A stretch of 64,000 nucleotides of DNA from Golubevia sp. BC0850 (lineage: Eukaryota > Basidiomycota > Exobasidiomycetes > Golubeviales > Golubeviaceae), in contig JAAVVG010000030.1 in NCBI GenBank assembly GCA_012976225.1, positions 1-64,000 of the forward strand. The letters run 5' to 3'. A program made the position numbers and the translations under genes. The notes under the pieces were generated by a model, which was given only the letters and a program-made list of their open reading frames with translations, was not told the origin of the DNA and made no database searches. Positions 923-58,061 of this stretch are shown here, one piece after another (the stretch's first letter is position 1; the number at the start of each line of letters is the position of its first letter).

Positions 923-3137
923 CTAAATCTCATTCGAGGTTGCTTTTTTGTTTGCCTCTTCAAGCTCTTCTGCTTGAATTCTTTCGATTCCTTTCTTGTC
1001 ATCCGTCCACCAAGCAAAGAAGGCGCAGAGAAGAAACAATGGGAATGAGGCGACTGTTGGTTTGAAGAGAGAGAAGAAAGGTAGAGATTGACCAAGGTTT
1101 AGAAACCATACAATCAAGACAGAAGAACTTCTCAACTTCAAGTCGTTGGTTACTCACTTCCTATGACACGAGGCTGACCAGTGGCGTCGATGATTGGACC
1201 ATTGACGACTTGAGGAATCCAAGTGGTCAGACAGGAAAGTACCAATTGGAAACCAAAGTATCTGATTTCTGAACCTTTTGGGAAAAGTTGACAGAAAAAA
1301 ACTCTGAAAAGCGGTGATAGAACCGAACCTGCTGCATTTTGAAGGACATTGAAAAGGTAAAATTCCCACCTATGTTTGAAACCGATTGGAATGCTACCTC
1401 TTAATCCAAGCATCGACCAGAAAGGTAGAATCGAAACCAAAAGGTAAGCTCCGATGGCCCACTGTCTTAGACTGAGACCAGTGCGAGGGAAGAGGAATAA
1501 CCAAAATGTGGCAAAGATCAGACTTGTAACGGCTCCAGACAGAGAATAGAGAGTAAACTCCAACATTGAAGGTCTGAGAACATTTTGGAAAAGAGTAGAA
1601 GTCACCGTTCCGAATGCGAAGACAGTGTCGTTGTAAACGGTGTAAGAGATGAGCAGCTTGAAAGCTTCTGGGTACTCGCGAACTCCATTCCAGAGACTCA
1701 AGACTGAAAGGAGGAACAGAGACCAAATAAGATAAAATTATTATTGAACGGGCTGGGAAGAATCGATTTCGACGTAGAAAACGAACTCACATGTCTTCCA
1801 GGGCACGCTGAAGATGAATTTGGCATTCCAGCCATCTGGAAGAGGAAGTCCACCGACTCTTGGAAGAAAAGGTAGAGCTACTAGAGAGATGAGAATGAGG
1901 AACGCTCCAGCCCCAGTCGTCATGTAGAGACCAGCGTAAGCAGAGCTGACGTTGAGAAGACCGATTGTGATGCAATAGAAGACAATCGTCGAAGCGTTTT
2001 GAGCGTTCCCTCCCCAGACAGAGATCGAGACTCCTTCCCTTTCTCTTTTGGTTCTGACTTGATCCAAATCTATCTCTTCGGGTTCTGATGCTGGAAGAGT
2101 ATCTGTTTGATCAGCTTCGATGGGAGCTGCCTTTCTCATAGTGTATGGAATGAAAATGTTCATCCAAGCCTGGGTGATGAAACCGATTGTGTTGAAGGTC
2201 ACGTACAATCCACTATAAGCATTGAAAGTCATGAGATCAGAAGACCTGAGACCTGCAGCCGGTAAGCACAGAGCTCCATAAATGAACAGTAGAAAGATGT
2301 ATTGTTCACGTTTCCAGGCTGTCGTTGAAGCGAATGTGGGAGAGTAGAGAGTGGAGAAGTGAGAAGGGGAGAGTAGAGAGTGGAGAAGTGAGAAGCGAAA
2401 GAGTGGAAAGGATCAGTCAAAGGCCAGACGGAGAGGGAAGACCTCTTTGACTTTAGGTCTAGAATTGCTAACTCACCAGCGTAATCCCCAAGTCCACAGA
2501 CGAAAAAGACGAGAACACCACCGAGGGCATAGGTGATTGCGTTCAGGTAAAGAATGTAAGAAGTGAGGTTTACTTCTCCACTCCCAGCCATTGGTACGAG
2601 ACAAGGCTGTCCAAAGTCGAAGCACATCGAGCCAGCAGGGGATCCTGGTTGACGCTGAAACGATGTAAGGGGCAGTGGCTGCAAGTCAGCGAAGGAAAGT
2701 AGGAAAGTAGTATTAACTCCCAAGTAAGCAGATTGAACTCACTCCTACAACGTAACCAATATTTTGGATCTGAAAGCCAACGTAGGTAGCAAATCCGCCG
2801 AACGCTGGTCCAATCTGAGAGAGCGAACATAGTAAAAACGGGATGAGCGTCAGAAGAGACATGGGAGACCAAAAATTGACCGTAGAGACTCGAGAGATCA
2901 CTCACTCCCTGTAAAAGCGATAAGGCATAAAGAGAGAGTAACTGTGTCAGATGGAATAAGTATGAGTGGTCTTTGACTGGAACATGCACTCACAAAAGTC
3001 GTCGCTGAGAAAGCTGCTTTGTATTGCAAAAGCTGTTTCTCGGTTGCAGCAGCAGGGGTTTGAGCCTCGTAGGACAAAGATTTTGAATCTGGCTCTTGGT
3101 GAGCATCTTCTGAAATCTTGATGTCTGTTTGCTCCAT
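923..3137 (-). CDS. Atg22-like major facilitator transporter
   Basis: A multi-exon gene starting at the ATG at 3137 (MEQTDIKISEDAHQ). It has a hydrophilic N-terminus followed by many hydrophobic segments: GPAFGGFATYVGFQ, FVCGLGDYAGELA, a charged central loop with acidic and basic residues, then further membrane helices. A GTGAGT donor after VIG splices to a last exon encoding a hydrophobic helix (ASFPLFLLCAFFAWW) and the tail ending at 923. The layout and the C-terminal part (LFPKGSEIRYFGFQL) resemble the Atg22 family, vacuolar permeases that release amino acids from the vacuole. It lies head-to-head with the methyltransferase at 3592 and next to an isocyanide synthase, so it may move an amino acid precursor or the product across a vacuolar or plasma membrane. 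That role is inferred. A general MFS exporter is the alternative. Confidence 0.75.
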
Positions 3138-3591
3138 GCTTTTTGAGCTCTTTTGGGGACAAGGAGTGGGAGAAAGGGAGAAGAGAGAAAAGGATGAAAA
3201 TGGGAAGCAATGATCCTCTCAAGTACTTTTCTACTGGTTCTCTTTGAAAGAGTCGGACTCGAGTTTTCAAGACTCTTCTGAGTGTCTTTCCAGTCAGCCT
3301 CGTCGGATGGTTTTCTCATCAAACGGACCCTTTCTGGGTTTCTTACTTTTTAGTTCGGCCCTTGGAAACACTAAATTCTTGTTCCTCGCTTAATCAGGAA
3401 CGTTAGTATCCGTTGAAGGACGAAAGTCTGGATTTGCAGCAGTCGGCGGAGCGTTTCTTGAAAGCTTGAGAAGGAAGCGCGCCTTTTCTGGAAAATTTAC
3501 TTTCTTCTCAATTAGACCGTGAGCAATATTTGAACTTATTCTCAGCTCCTCATCTTCTCAATAGAGCATCAAACTTCAATCTGGTCTCATC
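3138..3591. promoter_or_regulatory. bidirectional promoter, Atg22-like gene / methyltransferase
   Basis: This 454-bp gap separates two divergent genes of the candidate cluster. It contains TCGGCCCT at 3355-3362 and a GCGC-rich block followed by TTTTCTGGAAAA at 3478-3495. Near-identical elements occur in the next divergent promoter (7390-7979). CGG triplets (agtcggcggagcg near 3441-3453) would suit a Zn2Cys6 regulator, but no regulator gene is seen in the window. Confidence 0.5.
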
Positions 3592-4916
3592 ATGTCAATC
3601 GTAGAAGGACTGGCAGAAATCAACGGGACTGGTAAGCGTTTCTATCATGCAGACAACAAGGTGAGCGAACGAGCTCAGAGCTGTCTACAATTTGCCCAAC
3701 ATTCATTCACGAAAGAAGTCATCTGCATACTAGAAAAGCACTTTCTGACCTTCTTTCGACTAACGAGTCTTTTCGGTCTTGCTTGTCTTTCTCTTCATTT
3801 TTTTTACTGCAGTCTATCTACGCCTTACCAGCAGATTCAACCGAATACGATCGTCTTCACAAACAGCATCTCCTCATCCTTCATCTTTTCGGAGGACCTA
3901 TCTCTTCTCCTGAGACAGTCAAGCTTCTCGAGAACAAAGATCGAAAGACCAAGGTGCTGGATCTCGGGTGTGGTAATGGGAGTTGGATCAAGGTCAGTTT
4001 CCCAATTCCCATTTCACTAACTTTGTCGTCCATTTCCCCCGTCTTGTTCTGACTTTTTCTCCAACTTTCCATTGCTCGAATAACAGCAAATCGCAAAGGA
4101 ATATCCTGAAACCGCAGATTGTCATGCTTGTGATTTTGTTTCTTCTTTCCAACCTCAAGAAGGACTTGACATCAAGTTTGCCTTGGGAAACGTTCTTGAA
4201 ACATTGCCATACCAAGACGAGGAGTTTGATTTCGTTCACATGCGTTTCTTTACCGGTGCTTTGAAAGTGAGTGTCAGCTCTCGTCAGTATCTCTGAGCAG
4301 AGATGACACAATCTTATTACTAAAAATCTCCATCTATTCTGTCGCTTCCACTTTCCATCACTCCTCATTCTAAGCTTGAAGAATGGCCAATTGCAGTCAA
4401 AGAGCTCTTCAGAGTAGCCAAATCTGGTGGATTTGTCCAAATGGTAGAACCGGATGGAGAGCTTCGTGCGGAAGAAGCTTCCAAGATCCTCGAAGACTGG
4501 AATGAGAGAGGTGAGTAAAAGAATGGTCTCTCGAATCGCTTGCGCCGAGTTCACTTCTGACGCCAATCTCTCGGAATCTGCTCTTCATTTCAGGTATGCG
4601 TGGATCACTCAAAAAAAGAGGTGGAGATCCATTGGCAGGTCTTCGTCTCGGATCTCTGCTCAAAACGGCTGGTTGTTCAGGCGTCGAGACCGTGGTTCGT
4701 TCGGCTCCAATGGGGAAAAGATTCGAAGGAGACGAATTAGGAGCATTGATGATCCATGACTATAAAGCTCTGATCAATACTCTGGCTCCTGTCCTTTCGA
4801 GAGGTTGGGATATCTCTGTCTCTGAAATGTCAAAGTGGGGAGAAGAGATTGTCCATGAATGTGCTCGTCTCAAAGCATTCCACAACTTTGTCACCGCTGT
4901 TGGCAAGAAGGAATAA
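3592..4916 (+). CDS. class I SAM-dependent methyltransferase
   Basis: Five exons starting at the ATG at 3592 (MSIVEGLAEINGTGKRF) and stopping at TAA 4914-4916. The glycine-rich SAM-binding motif I is clear (VLDLGCGNGSW), with the acidic motif II region (HACDF) and a motif following LPYQDEEFDFVHMRF. The post-core segment is VAKSGGFVQMVEPDGEL, typical of methyltransferase domains. Total length is about 300 residues, the usual size for this family. The substrate cannot be read from the sequence. Divergent transcription from the Atg22-like gene and convergence with the isocyanide synthase 280 bp away suggest it is a tailoring enzyme of the same pathway, transferring a methyl group to O, N or a carboxyl of the product. 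That assignment is by context only. Confidence 0.85.
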
Positions 4917-5195
4917 ACTTTTCAAAGTGGCTCCAACTTTTGTGAAGATTTCATACTTGACGGTAGGATTGAAGTTGAAAAGCAATGCAATCACCTTTTT
5001 TGACTCTCTTTTTCCTTCTGATGATTTCACTCAAGGGGAGAAATCGACATCTCTTTCGGAAGCAAAAGATCTACATTGAAATTCAGTTTATATGAGTTAG
5101 ATTTGACAATCACAAAGAGAGCAAGAAGAAACATAGATGAGCGAGACTAGATGGTAACGAATGAGAAGTAAATCAAAGAGAAAAAAAGTAAGAGG

Positions 5196-7389
5196 CTACG
5201 AGGCTGGAGATTCTAGCTCTCCAAAGTAGAAGAAACCACCTCTACCTTCCCCACAATTGGAAGGAAAGAATTTGGCTTCTTTACCCTTTTCGGCTCCGTA
5301 TTTACGAACTTCTGAGGCTTTGGCAGAAAGGAAAAAGTGCTTCCCATCTTCCGATAAGCGAAGAATGCACGAATGCCATGGTGTTGGGCTATGAAACTTT
5401 TCTGCCATACCAGCAGCAACGCCATCAGTTTGAGCTAAGACATAATTAGAGTGGATGGTACGGATTCCAAACTTGGGACCAGAGTTGTCGTGTCTGATGA
5501 TAGGAAGAAGAGATTGAGACAAACGGGAATGGGGAGAGTCTTTTTCAGCTCGTAGTGATGAAATCCCGATCCCCTTCTGTTCTTTCGTCTGTGACTCACG
5601 GGTGAATACTGAGTCTGATTGCCCTGGGGAATTCGAATTGGACGAGTCTGGAGTAGGCGTCGTTGCGCTGTGGAAAACGGAAGAAAGAAATGTGAGATCA
5701 GAGAATGGTCACGGGTTGTCACTCTTTGATGAGTTAAAAAGGAAGGGATTGAAACTCACGAGCAACATATGCAAAGCGATTTGAGCAGCCAACTTCTTCT
5801 GAGCTTTGTTGGAAGTACCTTTCCTCGAAGGATGGGATTTCAAATCCTCGTAGACAAATTTGGAGAATCTGAAAAGATTAGACAAAGAGAAGCGAGAGAT
5901 AAGTCATAGTTAACCTCTTTTTGACCTCTACCGACTCTCGAAGGACTCACCCATGATACATTTTAGCAATATTCGGGTCCGACTTGATGGATTCCTTTAG
6001 AGAAGCCATCTCTAGATGACCGTAGAAGCGAGATAGAACTTCTCGGTAGAGATTCGCAAGTGGATCGATCTGAGAAATTGGCTCCAACTGGTTCGAATCA
6101 TAAACGATTTCGCTATCGAGATTGGACAAAGCCTTGAAGTAAGAAAACTTGTCACTACTGATAGAGAAAGAAGTTTCCAAGTCTGGAATGTCCAAAAGCT
6201 CATCCAGTCTGTAGAATTGGAAATGAGAATCGGAAAGAGGATCGATCGCTTTCGTCATTGCCACCAAGGCATCGTGATAGGCGCCGACGACAGAGTCATC
6301 AACACCGACTTTGAGCATAAGCAAGAGCAAGAGAGAGTGAGAAAAACAGATCAAGAAAGGACTAAAGTAAGACCTCTACTCTTCCGCTTCGAATTCAAGA
6401 AGAGGTTCGTCGACAGACTCACTCAGATCCGAAAAGACGTGTCCATCGCTGACAATGTGAAGCTTGCATCCAGGAAAGTAGATGGCCTCAACGGCAAAGA
6501 TGAAGTTGAGAAAAGTGCAAATGGCGAACTCTTCTCCAAGATCTGGAAGTTCTCCGCTTGTCTTTTCCTGAAGGGAGAAGAGAGCCCCGAGACAAGAGAG
6601 GGAAAAGAAATCAAGAGGGCGAAAGTCAGAAGGGCGCCGCCAGAGGACGGAATTTACAACCACAGCACAAAGTTTATTCTGACTTCTCCTCTGGAATTGA
6701 CTCACTCTATTGGGGGATTTGCACGGGAAGGCCGGAAGGACCATCTGAATCGGCTCATTCAGCGAGACGAACGAAGCGACCTGCTTTGAAAACAGATTGC
6801 GACCTTGATCTGGCCTTGAGCTATACCAAAAGTCTTGTTGAGGAGAATACTTCAAAAAAGACTCATATAGATCTGCGATTCCTTCCACCACCAAAGTAGG
6901 ATCTTGGACCAGAGAATCGAATCTCTCAACCGAAGGGGAGGCTGCTCTGAGCGAAGCCTCCAACACTCGAAAGACTGAATAGTGAAGATCCGAACGAGTC
7001 AAGATATCGCTTTTGACATCAATCAATGAGCTTTTGGTGGAGTCTAGACTGACAGCAACTCCAGAGGTGAGTTCAGATGAGAGAGGAATCTCGAACAAGA
7101 TAACTGCTGCCTTGCGTTTCTTCGATTCCTTTTTGAAGCAGAGATAAGCATCCAGATAGCAAATTAAACCATCCGCAATGGAATCTTCGGAGATGAAAAA
7201 ACCGATGTCTAGACCATCGCTCAGAAGGTTGTATCCCAAAGCTCTAAGTTGCTCTCGGTAGAGGTAGATGGGCTGCATTTCTGAAAGTAAGATTGGATTC
7301 TCCAAGTCGAGATCCTTCGAGCTTGTTTGAATCAGTTGGGATCCTCCTACTTTGGGCTTGTAGTTGTAAACGGCTTCGATAAAAGTCAT
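5196..7389 (-). CDS. isocyanide synthase, Dit1/PvcA family
   Basis: A five- or six-exon gene starting at the ATG at 7389 (MTFIEAVYNYKPK). Family hallmarks appear in order: LPAFPCKSPN, LPDLGEEFAI, the block SDGHVFSDL followed by GVDDSVVGAYHDAL, RFYGHLEMASLKESI, IRLSIHP, and TPWHS near the C-terminus. Every exon junction I checked joins in frame, for example IRLSIHP to HDNSGPKFGIRT. The gene therefore looks intact, at about 530 residues. Members convert an amino acid (often tyrosine, tryptophan or valine) to an isonitrile or, as in yeast Dit1, an N-formyl derivative. It is a single-domain form with no fused TauD oxygenase or NRPS part. A histidine stands where I expect arginine in the SDGR motif. 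It is divergent from the ABC transporter gene and central in the cluster, so I take it as the core enzyme. Confidence 0.92.
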
Positions 7390-7979
7390 GATTCTATAAT
7401 GTCTCGAATACGAGCAGGAAAGTTGGGCGAGAAGTAAAGAAGGGAGTCAGAGCACTTGAGAAAGAAATGAAAAGACTGAACAGCAATACCACTCGGTGGA
7501 ATCTTCTCTGCTCACTTTGATATGACGACGACGAGGTAGATAAGAATGATGTCTCTTGAAGAGGAAACAAGATCTGGCTTTGGAGGAAAAAGGCAAAGAA
7601 GAACGCTTTTCTTAAATGGATAAGAAAATCGGCCCTCTTTGCAGGACGAATTTTAAGAAATGCCCGCCCTCGGCCAAGTCTTTTCCAGGAAATAGCGCAT
7701 TTTCAATATGTACAGAGTTTGAGCTATCATAGAAGCGAAAGGCTCTCACGTCGAATGACGGAGGCTTTCTTTCAGCCGTTCCTGACCGCCCTTCCCTTCA
7801 AATGGAAGAACAAGACTCGTCGAGAAAGGCTCCGTTGAAACGATGAGACCGTATGCATGATTTTTCTGGATCTAGCTCTTTTCCAAATCTTTCTATTTTG
7901 CCACTTTTTCTCCTCTCGATAGTACTCTTTCTTTTCTTCAACTTCTTAGAATTTCCAACTCTTTAAGGCAGAGCACCTC
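7390..7979. promoter_or_regulatory. bidirectional promoter, isocyanide synthase / ABC transporter
   Basis: A 590-bp gap between divergent genes. It contains TCGGCCCT at 7629-7636, CTCGGCC near 7670, and TTTTCCAGGAAATAGCGC at 7681-7698. Read on the minus strand, the last is GCGC-TA-TTTCCTGGAAAA, matching the element at 3478-3495 except for one base of spacing and one substitution. A pyrimidine-rich tract lies just before the transporter start. Confidence 0.5.
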
Positions 7980-10900
7980 ATGTCGACCACAGTCAAGCTT
8001 GGAACGGCAGAGACTGTCGAAGATTCTCAAGTCAACAAGTCAATTGGAAGATTCACGAATCCATTCAGCTTTGCGACTAAGATTGAAACCTTTTCCAACT
8101 TAGTAGGTCTTCTCGCTGCCATAGTTGCTGGAGCGACTCAGCCTTTGATGAATATTCCTTTTGGACAAGTGAGTAAGCTAAAGCATCAAATCAAAGTCTT
8201 TTGCGACCAAAAACTAGAAGTAAATGAGCTCTTTGACCCAATTTGCATTCTGGACTCGACAGAGAACAGATAAATGCTGACGGCTTCTTTTTTCTAATTC
8301 TCTTGATTCTTTGCCCTTCTGTTCTCTTCCTTTTCCAATAATGAAAAGATTACCAACAGCTTCGTTAGCGATGTCTCTGGCCCGGAAAGAGAAAGGATCA
8401 CCAATCAGAACAACACTCAAATCGTAAGTCTTTTGTATCTGGCCGTCGCTACCTTTGTTTCGACTTATCTCTTCGTCTCCATATGGGTAAGTGTAGATGT
8501 ATTGCTAGACTGATTTTTGGTTCCAGCTCAAATGAATGGATGACGGATTGATGGCCTCAAATTTCCATTTCTCGACCAGATCTTCACAGGCGAGAAGATA
8601 ACAAGTCGAATCAGAGAACGATATCTTCACTGTCTACTTCATCAAGTGAGTACGATCAGTTCAAAAATATTTAATTTTGTAAGAATCAAACCTTCTGAAA
8701 GAGGTTTGCCCTCCTCCATCGTTTCTCCAGGACATTGAATTTCACGATACCGAAGGATCTGGATCCTTGACGTCGCGGATAGAAACTGATCTCAATAACA
8801 TTCAAATAGCTACTAGCGAAAAGTTGCCTCTGAATGTCATGTATTTGAGTTGCTTTGTTACAGGATTCGTAGGTCAGTCCCCTTTTCGATGCCTTTTCTC
8901 GCTGGAATCCTCCTGCGTTGCTCGTATCTGCTCTTTGACTTTTCTCTATTGTTTGTTCCTCTTCATTTACCTTCTCACTCTGTTTCTCTTTTCTCGACCC
9001 CTTTCCGATCCAGTCGCACTCTACAAGAGCTGGAAGTTGGGCTTAGCTCTGCTATCCGTTCTAGTAGCACTGCTCGTGGTTTCTTCTCTTTTTGCAAAGT
9101 ATGCCATCAAGTACACAATGATGGTGATGTCTTCCGTCTCAGATGCCAACACTTTAGCAGAGGAATCGATTTCCTCTGCAAAGACTGTTCAGAGCTTGTG
9201 GGCTCAAGCTGAAGTTGGATCGAAATATGCAGAGAAGATCAACATCTCAATCTCTACTGGTCGATCTCGAGCGCTAGTCTGCAGTGTCTGCGTGGCTACT
9301 TTCACCTTCATAGTCTATTCTGGATATGCTCTAGCCTTTTACTTTGGAGCTCGCCTCGTAAGAGATGATGAGATCACTCCTGGTATCATCATTACAGTAT
9401 TTCTCAGCATCGTCATGGCTTCTTTCGCCTTGGCCCAAGTACCGCCAAATCTTCAAAGTGAGTTAAGAGTCGAAAGACTAGATGAGAAGAGAGATCAATG
9501 CTTATTCTTCTCTTCTCGAGCTTCTCTAATCAAAGACTTCACCATTCTCAACTTTTTCTCTCGGTTCAGCCTTCGCATCTGCTCTCACTTCCTACAAAGC
9601 CTTGGCTCGTGTCATTAATAGGGAGTCGACAACTCCTAGCGGAGGATCCCTTCGTCCTCTGGGCCTATCCACTAGCCTGAAATTCAACAACGTCACTTTC
9701 TCTTATCCTTCACGTCCTGGAGTCAAAGTTCTCAACAACTTTTGTACGTACCTTTCGATTCGCCTCATTTCACCATCGAGTTTTTGACTCACTTTCCCTT
9801 AGCTCTCTCTCTCTCTCTCTCTCTTGCCCCTCGTTCTTCATCTCAGCAATGGAATTCAAAGCTGGAACCAGTAACGTGATCGTTGGATCGAGTGGCTCGT
9901 CAAAGTCCACAATCGCAAGCTTGGTGGAGCGTTTCTATGATCCCACTTCTGGAGAGATCACTTGGGATGGCTCCAGTCTTTCGGATTTGGACCTCAAGTA
10001 CTTTCGTTCGAAGCTCATATCTTACGTTCCTCAAGAACCAATACTTTTCGATACTACTATCGCCGAAAATGTTGCTTACGGTCTCGGTGAAGCAGATCCA
10101 ACTTCCTCGAGAGAGAGAGTCATCCAAGCTTGCAAAATGGCTCAAGCTCACGATTTCATCACTCAACTTCCTCTAGGATACAATACGATCGTCGGAACGA
10201 AAGGGAGACATCTTTCTGGAGGTCAACGTGCCAGAGTCGCTTTGGCCAGATGTGTGATCTCAACTGCACCGATCATATTGCTCGACGAGGTGACCAGCAA
10301 TCTCGATACCATCTCGGACAGAGCTGTGCACGAGAGTCTCAGACACATCTCGAAAGCGTCGAACAAGACCATCGTAAGTGTTAACAATAGCTTCTCATCA
10401 TCTCTAAAACCTTCAGCTAAATCATCACTATACCCCTCTTCTTGTCAGATCATGATCACTCACCGTCTAGAGTCTATTGATGAGTCTCAAATGATCTTCG
10501 TCATGGAAGCTGGAGAAGTGAAAGCTTTTGGTACTCACTCCGAGCTGGTCCATAGTAATGAAGCTTCTTACCTTAAGCTTCTAGGTAAGAAGAACGCCGC
10601 TCTAGAAGGGGATTTGGAGCCTGGCATGGCTAGGGCTACAAATTCTTCCAGTGCTAATGATTCATCGAGCCTCCGAAAAGATAACGAATCTGAAGCGACC
10701 ACATCTGCTTCAAATGCAGTGAAGTTCGAGAAATTTGGTGCGACTGCTACTTCGGAACACAGCTCTGGAGAAGCTTCTTCTGGATGGTCGGATCTCAAGC
10801 TCCTGATGTCTTTCAGTAGAGAGAGTGCTTATCTCATCCTTGTCGGTCTTTTTGGATGCCTTGTCGCTGGAATGGTCTACCCTGTCTATGCGTGAGTAGA

Positions 10901-13244
10901 GCTCTACAGCTGCTACATCTCGTAAAGCCTTTTCAAATTTGACTGATCCTTTCTTTCTGTCTCTCTCAATGATTGCCATCCATCCTCTTCAAAACAAAGC
11001 ATGGTCTATGCTCAAGCGTACGTTTCCCTGAACGAATCTCTGTCTTCTGCCAGGATCCAAAACCACAATGCCCTCTATTTTTTTGCGCTGGCTCTGGTTG
11101 GAACCTTTGGAGTTTTCCTTCAAAACTTCTGTCTCTCAATCGCCAGTGAGAAGCTCACGGGAAAGGTCAGGATCACTCTCTTCCAATCAATCTTGAGGAA
11201 ACCAGTCCTTTTCTTGGATCAACATTCTAGTGGAGTACTTTCCACAACTCTCAATTCTAGTCCCGATGCTATCCAAAATTTGACAGGTTCGACTTTCGGT
11301 AACTTTATCACAACTCTGGCCACTCTGATTGGAGGAGCTATCGTCGCTCTCATCTACAACTGGAGATTCGCCTTGGTCTGTCTAGTAAGTCAAAAAGAGG
11401 GCCAATTAGTTTCAGTCATTTGAAGCCACAGCGATGGATTCTGATCTCATGGGCCGCTGCTTCTCATTTCTCGATCATTTCCACTCTTTCTCTTTGCATC
11501 GATTGATTGTTCGTTCATCAAATAGAGCGTCCTTCCTTTGACGCTCGCGACTGGTTGGATCCGACTCAAAGTGGTTGATGCAAAGGAGGGTAAGATCCGA
11601 GCTGCTCACGAACCAGCTGTTAAGCTAGCTAGTGAAGCCGTTGCTCATATTCGAACGGTCGCACTTCTCTCTCGCGAAGAAAGCGTTTGTCGAGAGTATC
11701 GCAACATGCTTCTCAAAGTCCGAGGCCAAGCCAAAAAGCTGGCTTTCTTGGATACCTTTTTGTTTGCTTTGGCTCAGACCAACATGTTCTTCGTCATTGC
11801 TTTGGGATTCTGGTACGGAGGCAAGTTGACTCTGGAGGGAAAGCTTTCCAGCAGAGAATTCTTCGTTGTTTTTGTGAGTACGGAGACTTGCAAGCAAGAG
11901 AGTTCGAAGTCGAGCTAAAAGGTAACTTTTCTTCCTCCTGTTTTGCCGATCTCTCCCAGATTGCTGTTATGTGAGTCAAAGCTTCAGGTATGTGAGACCA
12001 ACTCTAATCTCGACGTTGACCTGTTGTCTCTTTTCCTTTTGATTTTCCCCATTCCACTTCTCAGCTCTGGATCGTTCCAATGTGTCAATCTCTTCAGTCA
12101 GGTTCCTCAACTTTCGCAAGCGAAGGTCGCGGCTAGGAAGATCTCTGAGCTGGTGGATGCCTCAAAGCACGCAAGCTCCAACGGAAAGCTTCCTTGTCCA
12201 ACGACTTGTTCTCTCAGTGCAAAGGATCTTTCCTTTTCTTATTCTTCTCGTCCAAGTCCCGTCCTTTCTGGTGCCTCGTTCGAAGCTGAAGCTGGCTCTT
12301 TCATCAGTATTGTCGGCCCGTCGGGGTCAGGTAAAAGCACGGTGGTCTCGCTCATCGAGCGCTTCTACGAGGCTGATGAAGGTCAAATTCTGTACTCTGG
12401 AATCGATGTCCTCGACATCGAACTAGGTGGATATCGATCAAAATTGGCGTTGGTCATCCAAGAACCGAGTTTATTCTCAACTTCCATCAGAGAGAATCTA
12501 CTTCTTGGTGTTTCTGCAAGATCCATCAAGGATGACGATATTGATCAAGCTATGAAGCAAGCTAGCATTTTCGACACAGTTCGTGGACTACCCGAAGGTG
12601 AGTCCTCCTTTTGCTACCCACGCTGATGTCGCTTCCAACTGACGAAGACTGCTTTTTTCCTCTCAGGTTTGGATACCAAGATTGGAGCTCAAGGTGTTCA
12701 ATTTTCGTAAGTCAGGCATCGAGGGAAAAGATTCTCGTGTTTGAAGCTCAAGAATTTCTGAGGCGAAACCCTTTCTTGACTTTTCTTTTCATCTTGGAAA
12801 TTGCAGAGGAGGTCAAAGACAACGTTTGGTATTGGCGCGATCTCTTCTTCGTCGTCCACAGCTGCTTCTTTTGGACGAAGGTCAGAGTAAAACAATAACT
12901 GCATTTTCGAGCTCCTTGTCAATTATCGAGATGGTGCCACTGACAATTTGACTTCACTCCTTCTCGTGGCTTTGGATCCTCTTGCAGCTACGTCTTCTCT
13001 GGATCGTCAGAGTGAAATCGAAGTTCAAAAAGCTTTAGACGATGCAGCCTCAGCTTCTGGAAGCACCATCGTCTCAATCGCACATCGTCTCCAAACTTGC
13101 AGAAAGTCCTCAAAAATCTATGTTCTGGTCGAAGGAAAAGTAGTCGAGAGCGGGAATTGGGATGATTTGATGGGAAGAGAAGAAGGGTTCTTCAAAAAGA
13201 TGTGGCTAAGACAAAGGAGCTCAGCTGATCATCTTGAAACTTAG
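7980..13244 (+). CDS. ABCB/MDR-type ABC transporter, full-length
   Basis: A long intron-rich gene starting at the ATG at 7980 with layout TMD1-NBD1-TMD2-NBD2, about 1,250 residues. NBD1 has GSSGSSKST as Walker A, Q-loop YVPQEPILF, signature LSGGQ, Walker B IILLDEVTSNLD and H-loop MITHR. NBD2 has a canonical GPSGSGKST, Q-loop LVIQEP, an FSGGQRQR signature split by an intron, Walker B LLLLDE and H-loop SIAHR. The NBD1 Walker A has serine in place of the glycine before the lysine, so NBD1 may be weakly active; asymmetric sites are common in this class. Family members export lipophilic compounds or the a-factor pheromone. Next to the isocyanide synthase, export or self-protection is the natural reading. 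A 22-bp CT run at 9803-9824 lies in an intron. Confidence 0.93.
9803..9824. repeat. (CT)n microsatellite in an ABC transporter intron
   Basis: About 11 CT units forming an extended polypyrimidine tract just before the acceptor that opens the NBD1 exon. It probably has no role beyond splicing. Confidence 0.9.
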
Positions 13245-13326
13245 GGGAAGATTGGGAAATAAAGGAGAAGGGAGACATTGTTGTATGAAAATTACAGTCT
13301 TTGAGTAAAGTCTTCAATTCAAATGC

Positions 13327-15358
13327 TTATAATCTTTCCGTTGCTTTACTTTCGACACGTTTGAAGACCAAAGAAAGTTCGAAAGGAGCCAACAGACCTC
13401 CCGCTGTGAGCTTGCATTCATCGACCCCATCTGGCAAATGAACTTCCATTTGTAGCAAAAAGGATTGTAGGAAGCTTCCTAGAATAAACATAGCGTATCT
13501 TTGGCCGAGACCTGAATCAAAAACAAAGAGGCTTTGCTCAACATCTAGATTCAAGAAAGCCGACTGGAGATCCGGGAATAATTTACTCACAAGCTCTGAG
13601 ACCAGAATGAAAAGCAACAAACTCTCCTTTGGAAGAGGCGTTCCTCAGCTTGGAGTCAATTTCCGCGAGAGTACTTCCCCATCTTTGAGGTTTGAAATGA
13701 TGACTGACGGTTCTTTGGGCTGCAAAAGCTGTCCATCCGACAAAAGTTCCTGCGGGAACGTGAGCTACGATACCGTTTCGAAGAGATAGAGACTGATCCT
13801 GATCCGTTCTCCGGTTGAGAAGCTGGGGAATAGGTGGATAAAGCCGGAGAGTCTCGAGGATAAAGGATTTGATTTGAGGGATTGAATTGGATGGGAGAGA
13901 AGGGTCAATCTCATTGAGCAAGTCTATTCTAAGCCGAGATTGCTCTTCCTGAAAAAGGAAAACAAAGACATGACCAGATGAGAAGGATGGTAGAGTAGGA
14001 TAGTCAAGGATGAGGCAGGCAGAACTCACGGGGTAAAGAGCGAGAACGTAAAGCAAGCTGATCAAAGCCTGCTGAACATTCTCATGTCCAGCGATGAAAA
14101 TTACTGGGTAATTAGAAAAAAGGATTCAAAGGTGATGAAGACAATCATTTCTTGTGAGATTTCCAACAGGGTTGGGCTGAAATACTCAGTCTCCAAATCT
14201 ACTCACTCTTGAGATTATCGATGAGCTGTCTCTGTGTCCAAATGCCTTCTGACACTGCTTCAGTCATATTTGCAAGCAAAGGAGACTCATCTTCAAGCTT
14301 TTTGGTAGTGGTGGCTTCAACTCCTATGGCTTCGATCAGCTCCACTTCGAAGCTAAGAACTGCTTCACGAGCCACCATACGAGACGGAAATAACCGACAC
14401 CAAGGCTGATTGTCGAGGAAAGGAAAACTGAGGAAGAAGGGATCGAATACATGACGCTTGACAGAAGTATGAATGTGATGGAGCTTTGGTGGCTTATCCG
14501 ACATGAACTTTTGGAAGAGAAAGAGGTTGGAAAAGAAAGCAAAGGCAAAAAATATTAGATTCGCAACCATTTGAACCTGATTGACCTTCTTCTAGGTACT
14601 AACTTTGAGGTCTTTTCTAAAAGCACACATGCAAAGGCATTGCATTGAGAAACGTTGAATCCAAGGAGTAATCATGAGAGGCTGTCCTTGATTTGAAAGT
14701 AACGAGTCGAGGAGCTGGACGACTTCCTTTTGGACCTTTTCTGAATCATAGATTGAGGAAAGGGGAGAAGCAATCACTTTTCGATATTTCTCCCATGTCT
14801 TAAGGTGGTGGTGGATTGAGGGGATGAGAGGATAGTTAGACAGAACTTAGGAGAAAGGATAGGCCAAAAGGGGATCAGAGACGAATGACCATCTTGAGCA
14901 GAACCACAAAAAGAAGAACTTACCTCTCCGTATTCGGAAATGATGTTAGAGCCAGTCAGCTGGGAAATGACAGCTTGAGGGATCTTCAAATGATTGCCTA
15001 CCTTGTGAAAACCTTGACCAGGATTTCTCCGAGTCTCTGTGGACAAGAGTCGATGGATTGAAGCAGGATCTGCAACCAAAAGGTTCCATCGAGAGGCAAA
15101 AAATATCCAAGCTGCCCCGTTCTTCATTCGAGGCTGGATGTAACGTTTGAAATGTTCGTCTTGACCTAGCATGGGTAATCGCAGGATTCGACGAAGAAGA
15201 GGGCTGATCGAAACCCACATTGGAATGACTTGGATTTGAGGATTGGGTCTTGTCAATTTGGAAGGAGGTAGTAAGATGGTTTTGATTCCGTAAATGAGGA
15301 AGAGGATTGAGAGTAGGAGCAGAGATAGAGGTAGTGAGAGAGAAATAGGGAAGAACAT
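13327..15358 (-). CDS. cytochrome P450, CYP56 (Dit2)-like
   Basis: A multi-exon gene from the ATG at 15358 with an N-terminal membrane anchor (FFPISLSLPLSLLLLSILF) followed by a proline-rich hinge. The I-helix reads IFIAGHENVQQALISLLY; the AGHEN form replaces AGxDT and, as I recall it, is shared with CYP56/Dit2 of yeast. ExxR is ETLRLYPP. The heme loop is FHSGLRACLGQRYA, with the cysteine codon split by an intron. It ends about 80 bp from the ABC transporter stop (convergent) and is divergent from the glycosyltransferase. In yeast, Dit1 makes N-formyltyrosine and Dit2 couples it to dityrosine. Here the pair suggests oxidation of the isocyanide or formyl intermediate, but the CYP56 assignment rests on one motif plus context. 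Another fungal P450 family is the alternative. Confidence 0.9.
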
Positions 15359-15658
15359 CTTCGACTTCTTCTGCTTCTGCGCGATCCAGTTGTCCGCTTT
15401 GAATCGTCGTTGAAGCTAATCTGCAGAGGAAGGATGATTTCTTCTTGAAGATCCAGATTGAATTCCAAATCTCAAATTCAAAAAAGAGCTCGCAAGCAAA
15501 TAAAGTTAGGTATAACGGAGCCTTTCTCTTTATGTTGGCGCTTGGCTCGATCGACTCTATCATGCAGAGAATCATGAATCATTCCGAACGCGTGATCATC
15601 AAACTTTCTCTTTCTCCCTTCTCCCAATCGTCGAATCATCACTTCTGCCTCATTCATC
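15359..15658. promoter_or_regulatory. bidirectional promoter, P450 / glycosyltransferase
   Basis: A 300-bp gap between divergent starts. The CTGGAAAA element of the other two cluster promoters was not found by eye here. A TCTTTTT-like pyrimidine tract precedes the glycosyltransferase ATG. Confidence 0.4.
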
Positions 15659-17421
15659 ATGAACTCTGAGGCCCACTTCTCCGTTGCATTGATCAGTGCC
15701 CCCGCAGTTGGTCATGTCCTTCCACTCTTCCATCTGGCACAAGTTCTCTCTTCAAAGGGAGTCTCGGCTGCTTTGCTTGTCTCCGATGTCGCTCTAGGTA
15801 AGTCTTCACTCTTATCTTCTGATCCCTACTTGATTTATCGTTGACTATCGACTTTGATTTTTACTCCTCGACTTCGATATCTACTTCTACAGCCGAGCTC
15901 ATTCGAAACGGAAGCATTCCCAAATCAAACGTCCATTGCGTTGCTCTTCAATCCAGCAGCACCGTCAGTTTCGAGGATATGGCAAAGTCCCCGTTGAACA
16001 TCATGAAGCTCTACTACGAGATGATGGAGCCTACCAAGAAAGCTCTTGTCTCTTTGACCAAAGGAGAAACTCTCACAGATGCTTTTGGAAGTTCTATCCC
16101 ATCTCTCCCAGCCCTCAAAGCCATCATCGCCTCTCCCTTTATCTTCTTTGGTCCTCCTATCGCAAAGGAGTTGAATCTAAACTGGACAACTCTGATCGAC
16201 ACTTCCACCGCTGGGAGTGTAGTGACACTCAGAATTGCTGAAGAAGCTTTCAAAGTTCAAGATCCACACGCGCTTCTTTGTCAGGAAGGAGTCAAATTAC
16301 CTGGATTCGCTGATTTCAAAACTCATGAACTCATCAAAGTCTTCGGAGAGAATCAACTTACGGGTACTAGTCCAACTGTGAGTGATTTGTCTGATATGAT
16401 TTACGTGAGCTGCCTTCGAAGAAATAGAACATTGAGAAGAACAAAAATTTGATTTCTCAATGTTACTCCGCTCAGCTCTCTCACCATTTCCCCATTCTTT
16501 GTTTTGCTTCTCAAAAATAGGTCGGGCTAGCCAAAGGATTTCATGGACTGATTCAAAGTTCCGACTCAATCTTGGTCAACACATCCAGAACTCTAGACGA
16601 AAAGCTTTTATTCCAATTGAAGACTACGCCTCCTAGTCTTTCTTCCGAATATCTTTGGTGCATCGGTCCCATTGAATCATCAAAAGACAAGTCAACCAGC
16701 CTATCTCCGGAGCTGGAAAACTTCCTGAAAAGTCAGAAAGAAATCGAGAAGAAGAAAGTGGTCCTGATTGCTTTTGGCTCCTTGGCTTCTTTGGGAGCCG
16801 AGGAAGAGAATGAACTGGTTTCTGCTGCAACTGCAAATTCTTCTCTAGCTTTCATTCTCTCTGGAAAGTCTTTCGGAAAGTATTCGGAGAAATTGAAGGC
16901 ATCTGAACATATCTTCTGTGTTGATTGGATTCCTCAACGTCAGCTGTTAGAAAGCTCTTCTGTCGATCTCTTTCTTTCTCACGCTGGATGGAACTCCAGT
17001 TTTGAATCTCTCTTGGCTGGTGGTGAGTGCTAGACTTGTGTTCTTGATTCTGTTGTTCTTGAGGCGGTAAAGGACGAGAAGAACATGCTCAGACTTGTTA
17101 ATTTTCTCTCACTCTCTTTTCCCTCATTGGTTTACCATTTTTCTAGTACCCATGCTCGTCAGACCTTTTGGAGCCGAACAGTTCATCAACGCTAACATCC
17201 TTGAGCAAGTTCATCAGGTAGCTAAAGCTGTCAGATCATCCTTTAGAGCCTCGCTAGATTATGCCTCGGCTTTTCAACAATTCTCTGATGGGAAATTCGA
17301 CGAGTTGAGCAATGCGTCGAAGGCAATCGAGAAGAAGCTCTCTCAAGAAAAGCAGAACCGGAATTCTGACGAGGAACTTGATCAATGGCTGGCTCTGATT
17401 AGTCGTGGCAAGAAGAGGTGA
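15659..17421 (+). CDS. UDP-glycosyltransferase, GT1 family
   Basis: Starts at the ATG at 15659. The N-terminal acceptor domain begins with SAPAVGHVLPLFHLAQ, the usual GT1 opening with a catalytic histidine. The C-terminal half holds the sugar-nucleotide site: IAFGSLAS, WIPQRQLL, LSHAGWNSSFESL and then PFGAEQFINA after an intron, together the PSPG-type signature. The length of about 500 residues is normal. Such enzymes move glucose or a related sugar from UDP to a small hydrophobic acceptor. As the last intact gene of the cluster, it likely glycosylates the isocyanide-derived product, for solubility, storage or self-protection. The sugar and acceptor are not predictable from sequence. No signal peptide is seen, so it should act in the cytosol. 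Confidence 0.9.
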
Positions 17422-36109: not shown

Positions 36110-37560
36110 GACGTGAGATGAGATGGAACTCTGGACTCTTTTGGGCCAGAAAGAGAAACCCCTCCGGTCTACTCCCCTGTTTCGCCTATTTCCACGATCC
36201 TTAGCTTCACCTTCCCATTTTTGATCATCTCATTCCCTGCCAGGACCTCCGCGGTCGCTCAAACTTTGGGAAGAGGCAAGGGAGAAGCTGCCTCTGAACC
36301 TTCGAGTTTGATCGGTTTAGATGGAACCGCCATTTCTTTGAGAGCTAGAAAACTTTTGCTCGAGAGAATGGTAGATAGCATGGTCTCTTCATCGAAGTCT
36401 TCATCATGAGGATTTAATTCTCGAGCGGAGTAGGTCAGTAGATGGAGAACCTCGAGGCTTGTAAAGGAGATCACCGGCTCCTCTCTCTTCATCATTTTCA
36501 GTGAAAACCCGACCACACTCAGTATCTTCAGTGCCTTACATTTCGAGAAATCCAGCTTGCTTGACTTGAAGCGACCGATTGAAATGAGACGGAGATGCTT
36601 GATTGAAGCGTAAGATTCGGCCAGACTTGAGAGGAAGTCTACTGAGACTCTTGTTATTGACTTTGCTCCAGAGTTCGTAGTTACATCTCCTCCGAGCACC
36701 TCCAGATCATCGAGAGAGTTGGTAACCAGAAGAAAGTGATAGATTGCTGCTGTCTCCAGATTTCCTCCTAACAAGTTGCGCTTTTGACCCCACCAGTTTA
36801 ACCAACCCTGGTTGTTCGGAGAGCCATGGTCCCAGACGATTCTGGGACTGAGAGCTAGCTGCTTACCTCTTGAGAGACCTTTGAAGATTTCCGAGTACTC
36901 CAAAAGATAAGCGAATGACACGTAGTCTAAATCGAAGGATATTGAAGCCTCTGTGTAGTCAAAGCAGAACACTGTTGCCATTCAGATCGTGTGGGAATGA
37001 TTGGAGGTCAATTTGAGGGGCGAGCTAGGGCAAGTGGCCAAGTGGAGAGACAAGGGACCTTTTCAACTCACCCAGGATCCAAGTCATTGTCTCAGCCGTC
37101 ATGTTCTATTTGGCATCTGTAGACGTATCCAAAAACAGCTTCTTCAGGGAATGAGTTGAGAAAAGGAGTGGCAGGCTCTTTCCTTGGCTAATAGTCTCCA
37201 ACGGGAACGAGAAGTTATCGCCCGCTAGGACTAAAGTCTGGAGGTTCTGGCACTTGCTCAGTATGATTCCCAACAATTGATCTCCAGCTTCAGCTCGAGC
37301 AAGTCTTCGTCCAGTCACAGAATCAAGAGCTTTCCACAGCTTTGTGAAAGACGCCTGTCGATCTTTGGTAGATTTGCCTTTGTAAGCCTGCACCACCAGC
37401 TGCTTGATCTGGCGACCAAGTCCAGGCTCTCTTTGAAGTAGGGAGATGATTGAATCCATGTTGAGCACGGTGAAAGTAACGTTCTTGAGGAGGGAAGGAT
37501 ACCAACTGGAGTAGGCCAATCTCGAAGTCGAGGCAACAGAGAGAAGGGTGGAGTCTCTGG
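36000..37560 (-). pseudogene. LRR/F-box-like family member A, decayed
   Basis: The minus strand encodes a protein collinear with the copy at 56508-58061: RDSTLLSVASTSRLAYSSWYP, then THSLKKLFLDTSTDA, then LLEYSEIFKGLSRGKQLAL, then YHFLLVTNSLDDLEVL, then SSLAESYASIKHLR, then the last exon VGDESKGEKCLSS. Compared with that copy there are in-frame stops (after STDAK, and after PLPKV with the family sequence continuing beyond), and the last donor reads GGGGAG instead of GGTGAG. It is therefore a pseudogene. The family resembles basidiomycete F-box-associated LRR proteins, but no F-box is visible in the exons present, so substrate-adaptor function is only a guess. Repeated leucine-rich strands are typical of the class. 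Confidence 0.7.
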
Positions 37561-37855
37561 ATCTGTTGAAGTACGAGTCAAAATGGAGTCAGATGAGGAT
37601 CAAGATAGAAGGAGAGGACGACTAGAGGAACTGAATCTTTGGAAAAATTGTTGAAGGCTACTGGTTCCTTTTCTGATCCTTTGATGGCGAGTTTCTGATA
37701 CATGACCCAAAGACTGAGTGGGAGAGGAAGAGAAATCAAATCAGATCTGGGCTTACTCCTCTTTTGTTCCGTCTATTCAGCCAGGAAGTTACTCAAGCTA
37801 ATCAGAGGTTTTTCCTGGAGATGCGATCAATCTTCTTCCAAAGTCGAAATGACGA

Positions 37856-55291: not shown

Positions 55292-56185
55292 CTAGACCTC
55301 AACTTCACAAATCTTTGGCTCGGAGTTACCACCAATCATCTCAACCAACTTCCAACATTCCTCCAACGCTTCAGTAGAGAACTTGCTGAAGTCAACAAAA
55401 ACCTTCTTGAGTTGCTGAATTGGGATTTAGTGATATTGAGCTCTATTTCTACCACCCGTTTTCTCTCTCTAAGGAAAGCTAGAAGACTGTCTCCAGCAGA
55501 AGTTGCTGTCTTGGTTGGTTTGAGGACTTCTCTCATCTCTGATCTGAGGACTTGAAGGTTTGGACATCTATGTAGGATTTCTTGACCATTCTTCCATTGA
55601 GGAGATCCAGAGCTCTTCAATTGGAGGGAAGAATCTATGGATGCGATCTGAGAAGACTTTTAATGTTGAAGGGACCTTAATCCAAGCTGGAAATCGTTGA
55701 ATAGGTTTGACTCCCTCCTGCAGAAACTCGAGCACCTCAAGCGCTGGAAACTCGAGTGGCATGATCACTTGACCGGCAGGTTTCTTATTGAAATAGATGT
55801 AGAGATGCTTGAGAGACCAGCAACAGTGGACGAGAATGTTCCTCCAATCTTGATGATCGAGATTTGCCATGACTTTGAGGGAGACGAGAGTTCTGAAAAG
55901 ATTTGGGTTGCTGACGTGAAGATAGGGAGAATCAGCGGCCCATGGTCGAAGAGATTGAATCCAAAGAACTTGAAGAGTTCCAGATTGAATCCCATTTGAC
56001 CTCAGAAGTTGAAACTTGGAGACCTTCTCCTCCACAGCTTGGAAGTCGACCAACTTACGAAGTCGAGGCAATAGTGAGTTAATTAGGGTAAACGCCAGAA
56101 ATCCAAAGCGATTGCCAATGTATAGCGAATGTCTTGATATGAAGGATCTGAAACGTTTCCGTCGATTTGATGAGCAATTCAGCAA
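55292..56185 (-). pseudogene. LRR/F-box-like family member D, probably decayed
   Basis: The minus strand reads LLPRLRKLVDFQAVEE, SLKHLYIYFNKKPAG, FPALEVLEFLQEG, FPAWIKVPSTLKVF, FPPIEELWISSMEEW, then in another frame CPNLQVLRSEM and FLRERKRVVEIELN, and in a third frame QLKKVFVDFSKFSTEALEE to the TAG at 55292. This is the usual order for fungal LRR-type F-box-associated proteins. Frame changes near 55580 and 55440 have no obvious GT-AG intron and suggest loss of function. Leucine-rich strands repeat every 25-30 residues. The start is uncertain; an upstream exon may lie near 56300. Confidence 0.5.
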
Positions 56186-56507
56186 TTGAGTTCAAATCCT
56201 TCTAAGACGGTAGCAGTAGAAAAATTTCAGTGTCGAGTGGTAAGTGAATAGGCAAACACAAGTCAAGATGATGGAGATTCCAATTCATTTTCCACCTTCT
56301 CTTTTCTTCCTCTGAAGAAGCTTGAAAACTGATTTCTAGGAAAACAATCCTCTTTCCTTCTAATTGGTTCGATAAGAGTGAGATGCTGTTGCGTCTCCTC
56401 TTCTACTTTCTCTCTCTTCTGAAACGTCAATCGAATCAAGCCACGCTCTGTGCTGTTAGTGGGTATGCGTAACAAATTTAAGAGTTCCTCCCTTCATTCA
56501 ACAGCTT

Positions 56508-58061
56508 TCATATCATGTGTTCAATTTTCATCTCAGTTTCTCTTCTCCTATCGACCACCTCCGTCCCCATTGGTAGAGAGTCGAGAGGAACTCTACCTTC
56601 CATGTTGTAATCTTGATCATTGACTATTGAGGGAATGGAGAGATCCACGATTGAAAGGCAGTTCTCTCCTTTGGACTCGTCACCGACTGGGAAGAAAGGA
56701 AGTGAAAAGAGCATCCGAGGTCAGATCTCAGAGCTGATGCGCTGATGAGGTCGGTGTTTGTATCTTCCACTCACCTGTCTCTCCTACCTCCAAAGTCCTC
56801 AGCTTGGCCTTTCCACTCTTGATACTCTCGTTTTCTCTCAATGCTTTCCTTCCCTCTTTCCAAAGTCTGACAGAGCGTGAAGATTCCGCCTCCTCACAGT
56901 CTACACCGATCGGCTTAGAAGGGAGTACAATTTCTGCTAAGTTTGGTAGAACGCCATTCAAAAGAGCATCTGAAAGGAACCTCTCTTCTACGAAATCGTC
57001 ATCCCTGGGTTGAGATTCTTCAAACACGTAGAATGGAAGATGTAAAATCTGGACGCTTGACAGCGAGGAACCTAGGTTTCCTGTCTTCATCTCTTGAAGC
57101 ATAAGAAAATTCAGACTCAAGGTCTTTAGATTTTTGAAGATCGAGAAATTTATCTTAATGGAATGTGAGGGAAGTATAGCGATGATACGAAGGTGCTTCA
57201 ATGAGGAGTGAGAGCCTGAGAGACTTGAGAGACAGTCCGTTGTGACATCTGCCCTTGATTCACCTCCAGAAACAGTGAGACCATCTCCGAGAGCTAGTTC
57301 CAGGATATCGAGAGAGTTTGTGACCTTAAGGAAGTGATAAACCGCTGTCGTCTCTAGATTTCTTCCCACTAATTCTTTGCTCCAGTTTCTCCCTAACCAT
57401 CCTCTGTTGTTGACAGAACCATCATCCCAAATGAAGATGGGTCTCAAGGCAAGCTGCTTGACTTTCGATAAACCTTTGAAAATCTCGGAATACTCCAGGA
57501 GAAAGTTGTAGCCATCCAGCGGTAAGGTGAAACAGAGCGAAACTTGACGTAGATGAGGGCAGTAGACTAGGATCCAGATCATGTTCTGAGCGTTCATCAT
57601 CCTTTCTGCATCCTTAGAGCCTCTCAGAAACAGTCTCTTTAGAGAGTGCGTCAGGAAGTGGAGGAGAACCCCTTCTGGTCCGTGAGAGGAAAGCGGTAGA
57701 GGCTACCGCTTAGGTTTAAAGTCTGGAGGGTTCGGCACTTCTCGAGGATAAGTCCCATGATCATCCATCCTGCTTCTCCTTGAGAAACTTCCCGTCCAAC
57801 AGCGATCTCGAGTTGTGCCCAAAGCCTTTCAAGCTCTTCAAAGGAAGCCTCTGGCGAAGCATCCTCTGGGACAAAAGTAATGTTGAGGTCCTTGACAAAA
57901 AGACCTTCTGAAGCATCTCTTTCCAGGAGAACGTAGAGGCAGTGAACATTGATCGACGAGAGAGTGGCAGTTTGAAGAAGATGAGGAAGCCAACGATGGT
58001 ATCCGGACTTGGAGCTCACAGCCAGAGCTGAGAGAGTTGAGTCTCTCCGAAGTTTGGGCAA
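56508..58061 (-). CDS. LRR/F-box-like family member B
   Basis: The best preserved copy. Exons give LRRDSTLSALAVSSKSGYH, then CRTLQTLNLSGSLYRFP, then THSLKRLFLRGSKDAER, then LLEYSEIFKGLSKVKQLAL, then SLKHLRIIAILPSHSIKI, and after a GTGAGT donor the last exon VGDESKGENCLSIVDLS to the stop at 56508. Between RFPL and THSLKR the frame changes once without an obvious intron, so the gene may be broken or the read may carry an indel. No F-box is seen; the first exon may be upstream, although no candidate is evident in 58062-58260. Leucine-rich repeats suggest protein binding. It is the reference copy for the decayed member at 36.0-37.6 kb. Confidence 0.55.

Follow-up and report, generated by a model that had tools for sequence, protein, structure and literature searches.

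The closest described counterparts of the locus analyzed here are the dit1/dit2 (DIT) clusters of ascomycetes (Clans 1 to 3; Nickles et al. 2023), in which a single-domain Dit1-type synthase and a cytochrome P450 occupy one locus. In yeast, dit1 and dit2 form a divergent pair that shares a promoter. A 2023 survey that covered 3,300 fungal genomes reported the dit cluster in Ascomycota and stated that no basidiomycete was then found to contain one. Isocyanide-synthase clusters have already been published from basidiomycetes (six from Tetrapyrgos nigripes and five from Clavulina). In the Aspergillus fumigatus xan and crm clusters, PF05141 synthases are found with transporter and tailoring genes, and XanB and CrmA are described as fused to a dioxygenase or NRPS modules. 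The Dit1 branch has been reported as deeply diverged from other fungal isocyanide synthases. Evidence on the Dit1 product conflicts: yeast Dit1 has been argued to make formyl-tyrosine rather than an isocyanide, and PvcA was unable to replace it, whereas Dit1-bearing Phycomyces yielded tyrosine isonitrile. Among bacteria, the rhabduscin cluster of Xenorhabdus (isnA-isnB-GT) combines an isonitrile synthase gene with genes for a TauD-type oxygenase (IsnB) and a glycosyltransferase.

Analysis of the window, a stretch of 64,000 nucleotides from Golubevia sp. BC0850 (contig JAAVVG010000030.1, positions 1 to 64,000), revealed six genes with open spliced frames between positions 923 and 17421. The original prediction had named six adjacent genes of these types, and all of them were present and open after splicing in the predicted exon models:

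923..3137, minus strand: Atg22-like MFS transporter, 552 amino acids, seven exons (3137-2994, 2941-2906, 2814-2743, 2678-2477, 2318-1791, 1703-1158, 1053-923)
3592..4916, plus strand: class I SAM methyltransferase, 295 amino acids (exons 3592-3660, 3813-3992, 4087-4266, 4375-4510, 4594-4916)
5196..7389, minus strand: Dit1/PvcA-family synthase, 553 amino acids (exons 7389-6706, 6567-6423, 6308-5951, 5868-5760, 5667-5600, 5493-5196)
7980..13244, plus strand: full-size ABC exporter (ABCB/MDR-like), about 1290 amino acids in about 15 exons, draft model
13327..15358, minus strand: cytochrome P450, 515 amino acids (exons 15358-14924, 14798-14604, 14507-14207, 14103-14030, 13948-13591, 13511-13327)
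15659..17421, plus strand: GT1-family UDP-glycosyltransferase, 475 amino acids (exons 15659-15797, 15893-16404, 16521-17022, 17147-17421)

A 544-residue variant of the Atg22-like protein, using a different acceptor, fits too. Pfam comparison matched the Atg22-like protein to ATG22 (PF11700; 212.7 bits, positions 29-479 of 482), the methyltransferase to Methyltransf_25 (PF13649; 49.1 bits), and the glycosyltransferase to UDPGT (PF00201; 64.9 bits). The ABC exporter contained two ABC_membrane (PF00664) and two ABC_tran (PF00005) domains. The methyltransferase may resemble the LaeA group. The listed relatives of the GT1 enzyme with solved structures were UDP-glycosyltransferases, including plant UGTs, and PF00201 was found at three places in the genome. 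No match to TauD (PF02668), a transcription factor, or isocyanide hydratase was obtained among the six proteins. Ten frames flanking the cluster were scanned, and the segment at 18.8-19.3 kb gave no match above the cut-off; it has two weak copies elsewhere and was kept outside the cluster. A kinase gene at 21.6 kb also lies outside it.

The six genes are arranged as three divergent pairs, and their bidirectional promoters were compared:

3138..3591, no strand assigned: promoter between the Atg22-like and methyltransferase genes, with CGGAGCGTTTCT at 3447-3458 (plus strand) and, at 3322-3335 (plus strand), a copy of the longer motif that differs at one base
7390..7979, no strand assigned: promoter between the synthase and ABC genes, with two motif copies, at 7759-7770 (plus strand) and 7823-7834 (minus strand)
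15359..15658, no strand assigned: promoter between the P450 and glycosyltransferase genes, with CGGAGCCTTTCT at 15516-15527 (plus strand)

The pattern CGGAGNNTTTCT, which came from our own search rather than from the published ICS-cluster pipeline, occurred in all three promoters in four copies, counted in the same promoters in which it was discovered, and nowhere else in the window. It showed no genome-wide enrichment (63 matches, versus 78 for a backward-read control pattern). The best 14-base word common to the three promoters matched at 27 of 28 positions, a score reached by none of 300 shuffles and, among 300 sets of three real segments (21.6-64 kb), by two. With 16-base words, 14 of 300 real-segment triples were as good; with 12-base words, 1 of 60 shuffles tied in a first run, and word lengths of 8 and 10 were not significant. 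The form CGGAGSSTTTCT had 13 further sites in the genome, eight of them inside stop-to-stop frames of at least 150 codons; by the same yardstick, one of the four cluster sites (15516) lies inside a frame (210 codons, 14946-15578). The ten frames around the five remaining sites contained no cluster-like gene set and no regulator; matches there were to PRP8, MFS, peptidase, and galactose-oxidase-type domains, along with glyoxal-oxidase and retroelement matches below the cut-offs. The presence of the motif in all three divergent promoters supports the view that the six genes form one cluster, and they look co-regulated.

The synthase matched DIT1_PvcA (PF05141) with 261 bits against a cut-off of 26.4, over positions 1-263 of 273, and an exon-by-exon search of the genome found this domain in this gene only. 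In an alignment of 191 relatives (72 bacterial and 119 fungal rows; L073 was dropped as short and P0001 was left out), the synthase kept all 37 columns conserved across 95% of the bacterial and fungal relatives. It also kept 67 of 72 columns conserved only in the fungal group and 43 of 56 conserved only in the bacterial group. Judged from its sequence, the synthase is a complete member of the Dit1/PvcA family in which the conserved residues are intact, which bears out the prediction that the family blocks were kept. In an initial 58-row tree (41 relatives, 16 bacterial loci, and the window synthase), long branches met, P0006 with P0018; P0006 was then removed and other rows were thinned. In the resulting careful tree of 32 rows (25 relatives, six bacterial loci, and the window synthase), the synthase joined Violaceomyces, Tilletia, and Tilletiaria (95/93), with ascomycetes as sister and with chytrids and bacteria outside. 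The supports for this nesting in the Dit1 clade were 95/93, 98/94, and 100/100; the chytrid rows formed a single clade weakly (60/1). Phylogenetically, then, the synthase belongs with Dit1, and the grouping with its family that had been set as a test was recovered. Among the 120 of 666 synthase matches listed, the nearest named relatives were basidiomycetes, in agreement with the predicted basidiomycete setting; none of the 120 carried a TauD domain, and no Vanrija protein was among them. A recent horizontal transfer of the synthase is not needed, because the Dit1 tree mirrors the order of the fungal groups. A xanthocillin-type (ICS-TauD) or crm-type (ICS-NRPS) identity was rejected because the synthase has a single domain. 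In this it differs from XanB and CrmA, as it does in lying in the Dit1 branch; the locus shares with xan and crm a fungal PF05141 synthase accompanied by transporter and tailoring genes.

The P450 gave a p450 Pfam match of 36 bits on one exon, and the spliced protein contains EXXR and FHSGLRACLG. In a P450 tree it fell into a clade of 8 of the 21 rows (100/100) with proteins from Violaceomyces, Vanrija, and Lophium. Three of its four best matches, all three in this clade, carry a Dit2 label, which is a database annotation. A profile search returned at least 28 matches, and no yeast Dit2 was among those listed. A P450 survey that includes Tilletiaria showed no CYP56 in the part consulted (PMC4633277), which counts against a Dit2 identity. 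On the strength of the database labels, the P450 is presumptively a Dit2 ortholog. In Violaceomyces palustris, the nearest P450 and a Dit1 were listed with contigs of equal size (54,736 bases) and with locus tags three apart, so linkage of the two genes is strongly indicated there. A second Dit1 of this species is on a contig of 18,201 bases. No further match of this kind was found in 120 listed synthase rows and 29 of 30 P450 rows (55 synthase rows and the P450 rows compared by script, the other 65 by eye). The synteny expected in relatives is thus indicated for two of the six genes, Dit1 and the P450.

This restriction to two genes would fit a pathway made up of the synthase and the P450, perhaps with the ABC exporter, in which the Atg22-like, methyltransferase, and glycosyltransferase genes are neighbors that happen to share a regulator. 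Atg22-like proteins and class I methyltransferases serve primary metabolism as well. We consider such a reduced pathway rather improbable, since the motif is present in all three promoters, including those of the Atg22-like/methyltransferase and P450/glycosyltransferase pairs. PF11700 also occurs at a second place, on contig C64, and the Atg22-like copy in the cluster would therefore be free for a special role. That the genes are chance neighbors with no common pathway is highly improbable in view of the shared motif, the three divergent pairs, and the linkage indicated in V. palustris, even though they stand beside a repeat-rich contig end: base 1 of the contig, where the window and with it the visible part of the cluster's left flank begins, lies inside a dispersed repeat, and repeats also occur at about 20.2-21.0 kb.

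The locus probably represents a co-regulated specialized-metabolite cluster that derives from an ancient dit1/dit2-type pathway of fungi. Its host is a basidiomycete, probably related to Violaceomyces within Ustilaginomycotina and so to the smuts. We infer the substrate, each tailoring step, the product, and the transport roles as follows. The Dit1 ortholog would add a one-carbon unit, taken from ribulose-5-phosphate by homology to PvcA/IsnA, to the amine of L-tyrosine, yielding tyrosine isonitrile or, once hydrated, N-formyl-tyrosine. The Dit2-like P450 might oxidize this product by phenol coupling or at the side chain, the methyltransferase would cap the carboxylate or the phenol, and the GT1 enzyme would glycosylate the phenol. 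The ABC pump would export the product, and the Atg22-like carrier may shuttle tyrosine or the product across the vacuolar membrane. Of the isocyanide pathway originally predicted, the Dit1-family synthase stands; given the disagreement between the yeast and Phycomyces reports on Dit1, an isocyanide is a likely product, with formyl(di)tyrosine as the alternative.

The same genes could instead serve the cell wall. Dit1 would then make N-formyl-tyrosine and the Dit2-like P450 bis-formyl-dityrosine, the pump would deliver it to the wall of spores or resting cells, the sugar and methyl groups would modify or anchor the precursor, and no free isonitrile would accumulate. The Dit1 grouping of the synthase and the Dit2 labels among the kin of the P450 are consistent with this, as are the yeast reports of formyl-tyrosine and of the failure of PvcA to replace Dit1. 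Against it stand the free tyrosine isonitrile from Phycomyces and the gene order: the P450 does not stand head to head with Dit1, an arrangement that one survey saw in every budding-yeast genome with a DIT2; here both are minus-strand genes, separated by the ABC gene. Sugar and methyl genes, moreover, are not known as part of the yeast pathway. A wall function appears unlikely.

Relative to the ascomycete DIT cluster, this locus agrees in having a single-domain Dit1-type synthase and a P450 together and in a synthase that clusters with the Dit1 proteins of ascomycetes, the bacterial ones falling outside. It differs in its basidiomycete host, in a P450 that is only presumptively Dit2, and in the adjoining GT1, methyltransferase, ABC, and Atg22-like genes. 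The suggestion of a new cluster type in a basidiomycete holds in part: isocyanide-synthase clusters from that phylum are in print, and what is newer is the occurrence in Basidiomycota of a dit-type gene set accompanied by sugar and methyl genes. Open-licence full texts contained nothing pairing Ustilaginomycotina with isocyanide or Violaceomyces with dityrosine. A basidiomycete Dit1 linked to a Dit2-like P450 would, if true, imply an older origin of the gene pair, closer to the common ancestor of Dikarya, and the dispute over the Dit1 product would become testable where a soluble, sugar-bearing product is predicted. Given that isocyanides bind metal and inhibit enzymes in other organisms, a lineage that secretes a glycosylated one would be ecologically interesting.

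As a tentative extension, the dit pathway may be ancestral to Dikarya (the synthase to all fungi), and kept in Ustilaginomycotina, where it would now lead to a tyrosine isonitrile that is secreted and carries sugar and methyl groups. This route would parallel that to bacterial rhabduscin, with the TauD oxygenase replaced by a P450 derived from Dit2. The locus resembles the rhabduscin cluster in combining an isonitrile-synthase-family gene, an oxygenase gene, and a glycosyltransferase gene with a UDPGT match; it differs in that its oxygenase is a P450 and not a TauD-type IsnB. The isnA-isnB-GT order was also found in locus L029 and in a Pseudomonas (L031). The window glycosyltransferase and that of L029 are identical at 27 of 132 aligned positions (20%), and the likeness to rhabduscin is therefore one of logic and not of close descent.

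Exon models for the region at the start of the window were generated with a small coding and splice-site program and then corrected by hand against family motifs. The window, which makes up the opening 64 kb of contig C23 in a genome of 25.77 Mb and 64 contigs, is intron-rich and has a G+C content of about 44%. The models bore out the six genes of the original prediction at 923-17421, with the extent claimed: an Atg22-like MFS transporter, a methyltransferase, a Dit1/PvcA synthase, an ABC exporter, a P450 and a GT1-family UDP-glycosyltransferase. Pfam analysis revealed clear matches for five of the six spliced proteins; the P450 was scanned on one exon, and its spliced protein contains the EXXR and heme motifs. 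All six genes are present and complete, are arranged in three head-to-head pairs (Atg22/methyltransferase, synthase/ABC and P450/glycosyltransferase) and have a common promoter motif.

The three intergenic regions between the paired genes (3138-3591, 7390-7979 and 15359-15658; 454, 590 and 300 bases) were compared for common words. The best 14-base word matched at 27 of 28 positions, and its score was equalled by 0/300 shuffles and 2/300 triples of real segments drawn from 21.6-64 kb. The corresponding counts were 0/300 and 1/300 at k=12, 0/300 and 14/300 at k=16, and 47/300 and 41/300 at k=10. In an initial run of 60 shuffles, 23, 4, 1 and 0 equalled the score at k=8, 10, 12 and 14, respectively. 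The shuffle and real-segment counts make the common signal clear at 12 to 14 bases. The motif CGGAGNNTTTCT, a generalization of the best words from the three promoters, occurs four times in the window, each time in one of these promoters (3447, 7759, 7823 and 15516), where 100 shuffles gave 0.38 matches on average; a longer form with one mismatch allowed has five, again all in the promoters. Genome-wide, CGGAGNNTTTCT has 63 matches, not above the 78 of a backward-read control. At genome density, 1,344 bases should hold 0.003 matches; the motif comes from these very regions, which makes the test non-independent. Eight of the 13 other genomic CGGAGSSTTTCT sites lie within frames of at least 150 codons, as does one of the four cluster sites (15516, frame 14946-15578). 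A CGG core is typical of Zn2Cys6 regulators; no regulator is present among the six cluster genes. The six genes form a real, probably co-regulated cluster.

The best named matches of the synthase are two proteins from Violaceomyces palustris, a basidiomycete of the Ustilaginomycotina. The initial P450 search gave 10 matches among 8000 candidates.

Proteins among the best P450 matches
Vanrija pseudolonga, "P450-DIT2", 43% over 92%
Vanrija albida, "P450-dit2"
Lophium mytilinum, "Dit2"
Violaceomyces palustris, P450, 48% over 58%, short model

Vanrija is a tremellomycete and Lophium an ascomycete. In a tree of 21 rows (the window and 20 of 30 P450 matches), one clade (100/100) unites the window with the four best matches and with three metagenome sequences (two proteins and a fragment); within it, the window and Violaceomyces P450s are paired (97/95). 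The affinities of the synthase and the P450 suggest that the window species belongs to the Ustilaginomycotina. Linkage of Dit1 and P450 in Violaceomyces is very likely, because IE53DRAFT_385311 (P450) and IE53DRAFT_385314 (Dit1) have near-consecutive tags and share a listed longest-contig value of 54,736 bases. The second Violaceomyces Dit1 (P0002) lies on an 18,201-base contig and carries FPGKS where FPCKS is usual; none of the P450 search matches shares that contig figure. A metagenome protein (P0001) is by eye near-identical to the first synthase frame of the window, intron read-through included, so public metagenomes contain the window species or a strain close to it. Two versions of a single protein from the chytrid Cladochytrium tenue (P0027 and P0037) combine a Dit1 domain with MFS transporter domains. 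Unless it reflects a gene-model fusion, this combination agrees with a partnership of synthase and exporter and with the pathway being old.

The cluster had been suggested as a possible new cluster type. It stands as a variant of the dit/isocyanide kind and not as a new category. Its chief interest lies in the Dit1 lineage being basidiomycete, in the indicated linkage of a P450 to it and in the extra tailoring genes. Nickles et al. (2023, preprint PMC10153163), who surveyed 3,300 fungal genomes, described the dit cluster from Ascomycota and stated that at that time it occurred in no basidiomycete. Isocyanide synthases have been reported from four basidiomycete species (Lim et al. 2018, PMC5974471), and the accessible text of a P450 survey that includes Tilletiaria mentions no CYP56 (PMC4633277). 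In budding yeasts, DIT1 and DIT2 have one common promoter (PMC6723986), whereas the synthase and P450 of the window do not. Rhabduscin requires isnA, isnB and a glycosyltransferase (PMC6386379); two bacterial loci, L029 and L031 (the latter from a Pseudomonas), have the order synthase-TauD-glycosyltransferase. Yeast Dit1 was concluded not to be an isocyanide synthase (Basiony et al. 2020, PMC7345447), but a 2026 paper detecting tyrosine isonitrile in Phycomyces reached the opposite conclusion (PMC13005658).

In the proposed pathway, the synthase would convert tyrosine to an isonitrile or formyl-tyrosine, the P450 would oxidize this product, the methyltransferase and glycosyltransferase would add methyl and glycosyl caps, and the product would be exported. 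The glycosyltransferase has UDP-glycosyltransferases as its listed solved relatives; several come from plants and act on phenolic or terpenoid acceptors, which would suit the tyrosine phenol as acceptor. In yeast, Atg22 moves tyrosine and other amino acids out of the vacuole, and precursor supply by the Atg22-like transporter is therefore a natural guess by analogy.

To the left of the cluster, contig C23 starts within a repeat of about 110 bases (window 1 to about 110), and 18 of the 19 genome matches of the first 920 bases are further copies of it. Because this terminal repeat recurs at 18 other places in the genome, the assembly breaks at a repeat adjoining the cluster. On its right side, the cluster is followed by some 4 kb that include dispersed repeats (around 20.2-21.0 kb); the genes beyond this stretch have protein kinase C-type, EIF3I, PP2C, CPSF_A and ORC2 domains. 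The segment 18851-19174 has two copies elsewhere, one on contig C20 (72%) and a shorter one on contig C11 (69%). It has no Pfam match above the cut-off; its reading frame is reminiscent of the start of an ABCC transporter, and it is possibly a relic. Similar minus-strand genes at 36259-37588 and 55568-58088 have common phrases, e.g., LLEYSEIFKGLS. No Pfam match was obtained for them in the two frames scanned; judged by eye, they look like F-box/LRR-type paralogues.
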